The translations under genes and the position numbers were made by a program. The notes under the pieces are model-generated. The model did not search any database. It had not been told where the DNA came from and saw nothing but the letters and a program-made list of their open reading frames with translations. Source: Saprospiraceae bacterium (lineage in GTDB: Bacteria; Bacteroidota; Bacteroidia; Chitinophagales; Saprospiraceae). From it: a stretch of 64,000 bases of DNA. Below, piece after piece: positions 59,083 through 61,717 of this stretch. The stretch is from contig JAKVCU010000055.1 in the NCBI GenBank assembly GCA_022448955.1, positions 1 through 64,000 of the forward strand. The letters are read 5' to 3'. The stretch's first letter is position 1; every line of letters begins with the position of its first letter.

Positions 59083-59514
59083 ATGGAAAACTGGATTTTA
59101 GGAATACATATTTTGGTGAGCTTTTATATGTTTGGGCTAATTTGGTTTGTACAAGTTGTTCATTATCCACTATTTAGAAAGGTAGGTCAGGCAGATTGGC
59201 TAGAATATGAAAAAGCCCATACTCATTTCACTTCTTTTGTCACCGCCCCTATTATGATTATCGAATTGGGTACAGCAGCTTTGCTTTGGTGGTGGAGTGA
59301 TCCCAATTTACCGCAATGGTGGTTGTTAACTAACTTTATTTTGGTGGTTGCCTTATGGTTATCTACTTTCATGATCCAAGTACCTTTGCATAATCAGTTG
59401 CTAAAAGCACATGCTGAGAAAGCGATCCAGCAATTAGTCCATAGCAACTGGATTAGAACGGTAATTTGGACCGTAAAAGCAGTAGTTTGGAGCTACCTCT
59501 TATTCATCAAATAG
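59083..59514 (+). CDS. Four-helix membrane protein of unknown function
   Basis: A 143-residue integral membrane protein with four hydrophobic segments (ILGIHILVSFYMFGLIWFV, IMIIELGTAALLWWW, WWLLTNFILVVALWLSTFMI, VIWTVKAVVWSYLLFI) and a conserved-looking VQVVHYPLFRKVG and HNQLLKAHA in the loops. It resembles DUF1772-like small membrane proteins but I do not assign it firmly. It is in the same operon as the NUDIX regulator and therefore may be controlled by the same sugar signal. Its 3' end overlaps xseB by 15 bases. Confidence 0.72.
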   Translation: MENWILGIHILVSFYMFGLIWFVQVVHYPLFRKVGQADWLEYEKAHTHFTSFVTAPIMIIELGTAALLWWWSDPNLPQWWLLTNFILVVALWLSTFMIQVPLHNQLLKAHAEKAIQQLVHSNWIRTVIWTVKAVVWSYLLFIK

Positions 59515-59676
59515 CTGCTGTAATTCTGTCTCAGAATTTCTTAATTTCTCCTTACAAAATTGGATCAGTTCTGCTGCTCTTTTGATTTTAGTCGAAAGAT
59601 CATCAATACCTATTTGTCCATTTTGTAATTCTTGCACTATGTCTTGAAGTTCTTGATATGCTTTTTCGTAATTCAT
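59500..59676 (-). CDS. xseB: Exodeoxyribonuclease VII small subunit
   Basis: A 58-residue gene read as N-Y-E-K-A-Y-Q-E-L-Q-D-I-V... with the family pattern ELQNGQIGIDDLSTKIKRAAELI, FCKEKLRNSE and the LFDE end. XseB is the small regulatory/structural subunit that binds XseA in a multi-subunit complex cutting single-stranded DNA. Its ATG overlaps the xseA stop by 4 bases (ATGA), so translation is coupled. It is convergent with, and overlaps, the membrane-protein gene. Confidence 0.9.
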   Translation of the reverse strand: MNYEKAYQELQDIVQELQNGQIGIDDLSTKIKRAAELIQFCKEKLRNSETELQQLFDE

Positions 59677-60911
59677 GATTTGTTTTTTATGTCATTTACG
59701 GTACTCGACACTCTTCCATCTTTAAACTGGGTTTCAATCTGATCTCCTTCCTTTACATCTTTGACAGAATCGATCAGCATACCATCTTTTAACACCAGGT
59801 GATATCCTCTTGCAAGTGTATTCTCAACGCTCAATAAATCTAGCTGTTTTTCCCATTCCTTCAATTGTTGTTGGGCAGAAGTCATTTGAAACTTTGCCCA
59901 TTGAGGGATTTGTTTTTCAGCTAAATGAAGCTGTTGCTTTTGAGAGTCAATTATCTGTTGTGTTCCTAATTGAAACTGCTTTTCTAATTGGTATATACGA
60001 AGCAGTGCCATTTGGAAAGTTTGCTGTGTCTTTTGCTGAATGAAGTAAGCCATTTGCATTACCTCACTTTCAAAGTGTAGGGTCCGATTGATAATAAATT
60101 CTGCGACAGCAGTGGGTGTTTTTAAAGAAGTATGCACTACTCTATCCAGTATACTTTCATCTGTTTCGTGCCCAATCCCTACTAAAACAGGATAAGCATA
60201 ATTGGCAATAGCTTCACTCAATTCATATTGATCAAATGCATTTAAATCTAGCTTTGCTCCTCCCCCACGGATAATCACTACACAATCATATTGCTTACTT
60301 GATTTTCTGATTTTCTTTAGCTGTTGCAAAACTTCCTTTACGACTAGATCGCCTTGCATAGAAGCGGGAAAAATCTGTAAGTCATAATAGTATTGATAAG
60401 GATTGGAAGTGACTTGATTTAGAAAATCTTGCAGGCCAGCGGCCCTTTCAGATGAAATGATAGCTATTTTCTGGAGCACTTTAGGAAGTACGACCTCTTT
60501 GTTTTTGCCAATTAGGCCCTTTTCTTGAAGCTTTTGTAAAGTAGCTCTTTTTTGTAGTTCTAATTGCCCTAAGGTGTGTGCTGGATCGATCTCTTCAATT
60601 ACAAGTTTCAAGCCATATCGTTCATTATAATCTACCCTTGCCTTTAAGCGGATCGCTACCCCTGCTTGAAGCAAGGCTCGAATACTCAAACCAAGCTGTT
60701 TTCGCAGTTTTCGGTAGGTTTTGCTCCAAATAACTGCTTCCGATTGTGCTACAATCTGTTCACCATCCTTTTGCACTAAAGAAAGAAAATAGTGTCCTCT
60801 TGACTCATTGGATTGAGCGACCTCACATTCGATCCAAATCGCCTCCGGAAGATTTAGCGCTAGTATTCGCCTTACATATTCATTAAGCTCGAAAAGAGAA
60901 TAAACTTGCAT
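59673..60911 (-). CDS. xseA: Exodeoxyribonuclease VII large subunit
   Basis: A 412-residue XseA, near the usual length. An N-terminal OB domain (QVYSLFELNEYVRRILA, WIECEVAQSNESRGHYFLSL) is followed by the catalytic region with GLIGKNKEVVLPKVLQKIA, ISSERAAGLQDFLNQV, VIIRGGGAKLDLNAFD, VLVGIGHETDESILDRV and SLKTPTAVAEFI, then a helical region and the C-terminal GYHLVLKDGMLIDSVKDVKEGD. It degrades single-stranded DNA in repair and recombination. In an operon with xseB. TACCTTTG at 60916-60923 stands 5 bases from the start, so a leaderless or mis-placed start is possible. Confidence 0.95.
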   Translation of the reverse strand: MQVYSLFELNEYVRRILALNLPEAIWIECEVAQSNESRGHYFLSLVQKDGEQIVAQSEAVIWSKTYRKLRKQLGLSIRALLQAGVAIRLKARVDYNERYGLKLVIEEIDPAHTLGQLELQKRATLQKLQEKGLIGKNKEVVLPKVLQKIAIISSERAAGLQDFLNQVTSNPYQYYYDLQIFPASMQGDLVVKEVLQQLKKIRKSSKQYDCVVIIRGGGAKLDLNAFDQYELSEAIANYAYPVLVGIGHETDESILDRVVHTSLKTPTAVAEFIINRTLHFESEVMQMAYFIQQKTQQTFQMALLRIYQLEKQFQLGTQQIIDSQKQQLHLAEKQIPQWAKFQMTSAQQQLKEWEKQLDLLSVENTLARGYHLVLKDGMLIDSVKDVKEGDQIETQFKDGRVSSTVNDIKNKS

Positions 60912-61034
60912 GCAGCAAAGGTAGGCAAAAGAAATAGATTAAAAGCATGCTAAGAATAGCAACAAAAAAACTCAATAAAATGTATCTTTTTGAAAGTTTT
61001 TTGGTCTACCTACTAAATCAAAAAATTTAATCGT

Positions 61035-61151
61035 ATGAATAATTGTAAATGCACGGATTGTAAATGCAACAAATGTGATTGTCAAAATTGCGCTAAAAGT
61101 AATTGCTCTTGCTCTAAATGCGAGTGTAATCATTGCAAATGTTGTAAATAA
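61035..61151 (+). CDS. Metallothionein-like cysteine-rich peptide
   Basis: A 38-residue peptide with 14 cysteines (positions 4, 6, 9, 11, 14, 16, 19, 24, 26, 29, 31, 34, 36, 37), arranged mostly as CxC and CxxC (CKCTDCKC, CDCQNC, CSCSKCEC, CKCC), and one His33; the rest is Lys, Asn, Ser and Asp. It resembles metallothioneins, which bind Zn, Cd or Cu in thiolate clusters, but aligns with no family I can name. The frame is a precise ATG-to-TAA ORF with no cysteine-poor part, so chance is unlikely. It ends 47 bases before a SigZ-type sigma factor; a 7-bp hairpin lies between. No signal peptide, so cytoplasmic. Gene likely, function inferred. Confidence 0.75.
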   Translation: MNNCKCTDCKCNKCDCQNCAKSNCSCSKCECNHCKCCK

Positions 61152-61163
61152 AAAGCAAGATGG

Positions 61164-61185
61164 AGGTTGGTTGAAATACCAACCT
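61164..61185 (+). terminator. Intercistronic hairpin between the Cys-rich peptide and sigma factor
   Basis: AGGTTGG-TTGAAATA-CCAACCT, a 7-bp perfect stem followed by TTAATATTTG. It is too weak in T to be a full terminator, but could attenuate read-through so that the peptide mRNA exceeds that of the sigma factor, or protect the 3' end of the upstream message. Confidence 0.45.
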
Positions 61186-61198
61186 TTAATATTTGAAT

Positions 61199-61717
61199 AT
61201 GGAAACTCAAGATATCTACCATAGATTCAGTAACGAACTTTACTTTTTTATTCTCAAAAAAGTACAACACAAGAATATAGCTAATGATATTCTCCAAAAT
61301 ACTTTTTTAAAAGTTCATAAAAACCTTTCAAATCTGAAGGAAGAAAAAAAAGTTAAAGGATGGATTTTCCAAATTGCCCGAAACGAAATCGTCAATTATG
61401 TTAATGCTGAATCCATTTATAGAGATAAATCAAGCACCAAAGAAGAGCCCCTTTTAGATGGTCCGCAATTTGCCTGTTGCTTTGACAAATTTATTAATGA
61501 ACTACCTGACATTTACCGAGAAGTTATTGAAATGGTGTATATCAAGGGGCAAAAACAAAAAGATGTTGCAATAATATTGGATATAAGTCTAGAAAATACA
61601 AAAGCAAGAATTAGAAGAGCCAAGGACTTACTAAAGAAAAGGTTTAAGGAATGCTGTAAATATGAACTCAACAAAAAGGGTAAATTAACTGGAGAATCCA
61701 ATTGTTCAATATGTTAA
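61199..61717 (+). CDS. sigZ: ECF sigma factor, SigZ type, with cysteine-rich C-terminus
   Basis: A 172-residue ECF sigma factor from the ATG at 61199 (a TTG at 61193 is possible). Region 2 is YHRFSNELYFFILKKVQHKN...FQIARNEIVNYVNA and region 4 ELPDIYREVIEMVYIKGQKQKDVAIILDIS, KARIRRAKDLLK. The end CCKYELNKKGKLTGESNCSIC has Cys152, 153, 169 and 172 (CC...CxxC); the CC-aromatic-G pattern agrees with SigZ, but the final CxxC makes a possible metal-binding site. In CorE-type sigma factors a C-terminal Cys-rich domain senses copper, cadmium or zinc directly. No anti-sigma gene follows. Co-directional with the Cys-rich peptide, 47 bases apart. Confidence 0.88.
   Translation: METQDIYHRFSNELYFFILKKVQHKNIANDILQNTFLKVHKNLSNLKEEKKVKGWIFQIARNEIVNYVNAESIYRDKSSTKEEPLLDGPQFACCFDKFINELPDIYREVIEMVYIKGQKQKDVAIILDISLENTKARIRRAKDLLKKRFKECCKYELNKKGKLTGESNCSIC

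Follow-up and report, generated by a model that had tools for sequence, protein, structure and literature searches.

The analysed stretch of 64,000 nucleotides (the window) carries a two-gene unit composed of a metallothionein-like peptide gene and a gene for a SigZ-like ECF sigma factor. The peptide gene (61035-61151, + strand) encodes 38 amino acids, 14 of them Cys (MNNCKCTDCKCNKCDCQNCAKSNCSCSKCECNHCKCCK). After an intergenic gap of 47 bases it is followed by the sigma factor gene (61199-61717, + strand), which starts with ATG at 61199, stops at 61717 and codes for 172 amino acids with the C-terminus ...ECCKYELNKKGKLTGESNCSIC. The Cys-rich ORF, its distance from the sigma gene and the CC...CxxC ending of the sigma factor had been reported in the initial annotation of this DNA and are confirmed by the coordinates, the sequence and the ORF translation. 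That account overlooked the arsenic genes beside relatives of this SigZ, and also the two features on which the mechanistic evidence mostly depends: a shared ECF promoter motif in front of the peptide gene (60981-61009, + strand) and a terminator-like hairpin between the genes (61161-61188, + strand). To the left of the unit, xseB- and xseA-like genes (exonuclease VII) occupy positions 59500-60911 on the opposite strand; the genes flanking the unit differ in most genomes examined.

The Cys fraction of the peptide ORF is 0.37, compared with 0.115 for the runner-up among the 360 ORFs of the window and with at most 0.20 in ten shuffles. Alignment of 12 related genes revealed that all 14 Cys positions are invariant and the other residues variable, that each gene uses both TGT and TGC codons for Cys, and that the variable sites are distributed 18/14/35 over codon positions 1/2/3. 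Judged from these three properties the peptide is under purifying selection at the protein level. A chance Cys-rich ORF was considered and rejected on the grounds of its outlying Cys content and the Cys residues invariant in the 12 genes. With its short chain, its CxC/CxxC array and little conservation outside the Cys residues, the product has the composition of a metallothionein. No Pfam or NCBIfam model, and so no described metallothionein family, matched it, and the comparison with solved structures gave nothing beyond a meaningless E = 9.4. It resembles SmtA/BmtA and MymT in being small, Cys-rich and presumably metal-binding; it differs from them in the lack of a Pfam or NCBIfam match, in the CxC/CxxC array and in having at most a single His. 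By composition and conservation we regard it as metallothionein-like and as a putative metal binder.

The sigma factor matches Sigma70_r2 and Sigma70_r4_2 above the cut-offs and comprises only the sigma2 and sigma4 domains, as expected of an ECF factor; its predicted model has an ECF sigma fold with matches to SigW, RpoE, SigH and SigK. Its top NCBIfam matches, over the whole length, are the two SigZ models TIGR02959 (129.2 bits, under the curated cut-off of 168.65) and PRK09637 (139.6 bits, under the curated cut-off of 212), hence the designation SigZ-type used in the initial annotation holds for the best match and not for membership by cut-off. The nearest named sequences are those of Salegentibacter, Psychroflexus and Aequorivita, which assigns the window to Bacteroidota. 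Three groups of Cys residues stand out in SigZ: C93 C94 in the sigma2-sigma4 linker (codons 61475-61480), C152 C153 where the last sigma4 helix ends (61652-61657) and the tail motif C169-x-x-C172 (61703-61714; all + strand). In an alignment of 35 SigZ proteins C152 is invariant (35/35) and C94 nearly so, and in a 19-row alignment C152 and C153 are both invariant. In the predicted SigZ model (pTM 0.42) C94 lies at the start of the first sigma4 helix, C152-C153 at the close of the last one (H131-153), with the tail beyond. C153 and the CxxC tail are common to the peptide-linked and most arsM/arsI-linked SigZ proteins of the 35-protein alignment and are lost in the clade linked to PhzF, for which the signal may have changed. 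At L033, L042, L069, L070, L072 and L079 a gene for a PhzF-type isomerase lies 30-72 bases downstream of a SigZ gene whose product has neither the second Cys nor the CxxC tail.

A comparison with the metal-sensing ECF factors of the CorE type had been drawn, and it holds in part. CorE and CorE2 of Myxococcus xanthus, formerly ECF44 and now ECF238, have no anti-sigma factor and carry Cys in the linker as well as a Cys-rich C-terminus, CorE sensing copper and CorE2 cadmium/zinc (PMC8999054, PMC9023288). SigZ shares with them the Cys in the sigma2-sigma4 linker and the Cys-rich C-terminus, and reading of the neighbouring ORFs in the window and in the enlarged loci disclosed no gene for an anti-sigma factor, zinc-binding or other. 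Unlike them, it has CC at 93-94 of the linker instead of CXC, and its C-terminus reads CC-x15-CxxC, whereas CorE and CorE2 have C-x4-C-x2-C-x1-C or CC-x3-C-x2-C-x1-C (PMC9023288). Further differences are the match to SigZ family models, the one-operon target and the presence of a metallothionein-like peptide. By analogy, SigZ may work like CorE; in linker and spacing it departs from the pattern of ECF44/ECF238. The C-terminal Cys residues of OrbS from Burkholderia cenocepacia likewise sense metal, and Fe(II) inhibits this sigma factor (PMC9023288). Putative on-board sensing by C-terminal Cys would be common to OrbS and SigZ, whereas for SigZ activation is expected.

Conservation of the arrangement was examined in 61 near relatives (own genome included), in 395 Bacteroidota genomes and by a scan of GTDB genomes that yielded 80 named loci. 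A SigZ-like gene at E <= 1e-20 is present in only five of the 61 near relatives, the own genome included, and is absent from the congener G001, so the unit is sporadic and has probably moved horizontally. Among the Bacteroidota genomes 29/395 carry a SigZ-like gene. With draws and GTDB scan pooled, a peptide with 11 to 14 Cys lies directly upstream of sigZ at 30 loci and a Cys-rich peptide directly downstream at seven; no such peptide adjoins the sigma gene at any of 40 ordinary ECF loci in the same scan. When 74 SigZ proteins were placed on a maximum-likelihood tree, the peptide-upstream loci formed a single clade (98/93) and the peptide-downstream loci a separate one (95/76). The pair would thus have been formed twice, or its gene order switched once, and either course favours a functional link between peptide and SigZ. 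A profile search with the peptide found it in 8/395 Bacteroidota genomes, next to sigZ in seven of the eight, a lower bound since the 11-Cys peptides of G088, G146, G165 and G369 escaped the search. The arrangement thus recurs across Bacteroidota; the check on relatives suggested in the initial annotation came out in favour of its view of peptide and sigma factor as one unit, with the linkage conserved in the SigZ clades. In agreement with its statement that no such pairing had been described, we found no published description of a peptide-sigma pair, of SigZ with a metallothionein or an arsenic response, or of such an ECF factor with arsM or ars operons, nor any occurrence of the phrase 'sigma factor SigZ', in a searched literature that leaves most subscription journals outside it, which makes the novelty provisional.

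The putative SigZ promoter consists of a -35 element TGTATCTTTTT (60981-60991) and a -10 element GTCTAC (61004-61009) and stands 25 bases before the ATG of the peptide gene. The consensus upstream of the peptide genes, TGYATCYTTTT, 12 bases and GTCTAY, is bipartite and of the ECF type, and its distance to the start codon is 24 to 27 bases in most loci. A matrix built from 28 of the 30 peptide-upstream loci scores >=20 in 30/30 of them, whereas reversal of these regions gave at most 7.8 and the control ECF loci at most 10.8. Other SigZ operons make the test independent in part: the motif stands directly before sigZ in the arsM loci L010, L012 and L073 (the last in a Chloroflexota genome) and in the arsI locus L029, all four outside the matrix set, and in the peptide-downstream locus L032. 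It occurs with spacing one base shorter in L009, L011, L062 and L065, and a SigZ-type motif is also carried by a Hymenobacter plasmid. Recognition of the motif by SigZ is something we infer, and many further ECF sigma genes are present in the genome, so that another sigma factor might read the motif, or a repressor bind it, with SigZ a mere passenger behind the peptide gene. This we consider very unlikely, given the bipartite -35/-10 layout, in most loci 24-27 bases from the start codon, the motif's company with sigZ in arsM, arsI and peptide-downstream operons in which sigZ comes first, and its decay when sigZ is lost, as described below.

The exact motif occurs once in the own genome, at the peptide-sigZ operon. 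Matches with <=2 mismatches number 13 against 14 in the reversed control, a comparison blind to a regulon with strongly divergent promoters, and, the operon promoter aside, they fall within ORFs or do not precede a gene. A further 23 genomes gave a similar picture, with matches outside the operon promoter at about control level. Because the exact motif is single and loose matches do not exceed the control, SigZ seems to serve essentially a single recognisable target, its own peptide operon. The sole credible second target is a possible one: a cation diffusion facilitator gene of G088, with the motif (L159, G088:C1:2224860-2224888) 16 bases ahead of it.

The genome G135, a congener of G197 and G248, has lost sigZ; the sigma gene that matches best there is a 32% paralogue, which G248 has too. 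G135 retains the gene order TfoX-like gene, peptide, 136-aa gene, RsmE-like gene, and the Cys array of the peptide is intact. Compared with its two congeners its promoter has decayed from TGAATCCTTTT to TGAGCGCTTTT, with loss of the ATCTAC element. Decay of the motif together with loss of sigZ ties the motif to SigZ, and retention of the peptide shows it to be worth keeping without the sigma factor. These observations bear on the role of the peptide, which had been envisaged as buffer, effector or titrating partner of the sigma factor. A peptide that regulates SigZ in place of the missing anti-sigma factor, by direct contact or by metal stripping, and for which detoxification is secondary, would fit the failure to see an anti-sigma gene nearby, and co-transcription with a hairpin that sets stoichiometry would suit a titrating partner. 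Such a role is nevertheless improbable, as G135 keeps a Cys-intact peptide after the loss of sigZ, and other SigZ members adjoin enzymes such as arsM without any peptide. From the G135 locus we favour the peptide as effector and buffer; titration finds no support. A peptide gene surviving the loss of its sigZ is located at 1495-1614 of L178.

The putative attenuator between the genes was identified by folding, by a simple scan that classed it as terminator-like, and by covariation. The hairpin of the window has a dG of -15.6 kcal/mol and a z of -4.8, and 0/200 shuffles were as good. A stable intergenic hairpin is present in 27 of the 30 loci (26 with z <= -3.6, L058 with -2.7) and lacking in L017, L018 and L019. 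In an alignment of 12 sequences 93.5% of the hairpin cells are paired, 13 cells are changed on both sides, the covariation score was reached by 0/500 shuffles, and slid structures came nowhere near it. The T tract behind the hairpin in the window is short and weak, so the natural reading would be a leaky terminator that allows much peptide and little SigZ to be made.

Taken as a unit, the two genes probably constitute an autoregulated metal(loid) detoxification operon run by a self-activating SigZ with its own operon as the main target. SigZ would work free of any anti-sigma factor. The thiols of C94 in the linker and of C152, C153, C169 and C172 at the C-terminal end would bind a soft metal(loid), As(III) being the likeliest, and the sigma factor in its bound form would join RNA polymerase. 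The holoenzyme would then read the TGTATC...GTCTAC motif ahead of the peptide gene, the only recognisable target in this genome. Most transcripts would end at the conserved hairpin behind the peptide gene, giving abundant peptide, and a minority would read through into sigZ and so provide limited positive feedback. Binding of metal by the peptide would lower the free level and switch SigZ off again. SmtA and MymT are controlled by the repressors SmtB and RicR. To our knowledge bacterial metallothioneins are few and the known ones are all under repressors; unlike the repressor-run SmtA and MymT, the present peptide seems to be under a sigma factor encoded beside it, and a sigma factor devoted to a metallothionein would introduce a new principle of control. 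The SigZ family, on which studies are sparse, would gain a testable function (soft metal/arsenic response) together with a promoter sequence and a candidate site for sensing. The small operon with a single recognisable promoter and a defined output is testable in a laboratory strain and perhaps usable there as a metal sensor.

The nature of the signal was approached through the neighbours of other SigZ genes. These include arsM (12 loci) and arsI (seven loci), as well as acr3, arsC, arsR and an ArsP/SaoE-like permease gene; such an arsenic-type gene is present in 26/74 SigZ loci compared with 0/40 control ECF loci. The SigZ genes found on plasmids adjoin arsC/ACR3, or an ArsR-like gene and an ArsP-like permease; on a Vibrio plasmid the ArsR-like gene overlaps sigZ and the permease gene lies opposite (assigned by reading rather than with a model). 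In G188 and G291 the peptide-sigZ promoter directly follows the end of an arsR-DUF6428-arsC-acr3 operon, which in G197 is located about 4 kb from peptide-sigZ, acr3 being the only model-checked gene of the operon and the remaining ones assigned by reading and similarity. Some arsenic-linked relatives share the promoter motif, and since Cys set and promoter are the same in peptide-linked and arsenic-linked SigZ, As(III) is the favoured and most economical common signal for what is itself a putative metal-dependent activity. Of the earlier phrase 'metal- or thiol-responsive', the family context narrows the first part to arsenic and soft metals and lends the thiol part no specific support. Against arsenic stand the searches of the own genome for ACR3 and ArsM, which found neither and so give no local pointer to this element, and the possible cation diffusion facilitator target in G088, which suggests Zn/Cd/Co. 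The same circuit might accordingly be induced by Zn/Cd, or Cu, as are CorE2 and CorE, with the peptide a Zn/Cd/Cu metallothionein and the arsenic neighbours reflecting a different specificity within the family. The C-terminal Cys motif of CorE2 starts with CC, and this factor answers to Cd/Zn (PMC9023288). We hold this alternative to be somewhat unlikely, because the Cys set is common to peptide-linked and arsM/arsI-linked SigZ, the same promoter serves the peptide-linked and arsenic-linked groups, and acr3 operons adjoin peptide-sigZ in G188 and G291. An arsenite-sensing SigZ, acting here as a one-target switch confined to the metallothionein operon in which it is encoded, where an attenuator would fix how much peptide is made relative to the sigma factor, is put forward tentatively, at somewhat under an even chance; if true, it would represent a sensor class beside the ArsR-type repressors. 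In several Bacteroidota ars operons a DUF6428-type gene of 155 aa is situated between arsR and arsC (L164 4197-4664, L165 4183-4650, L168 1569-2036).
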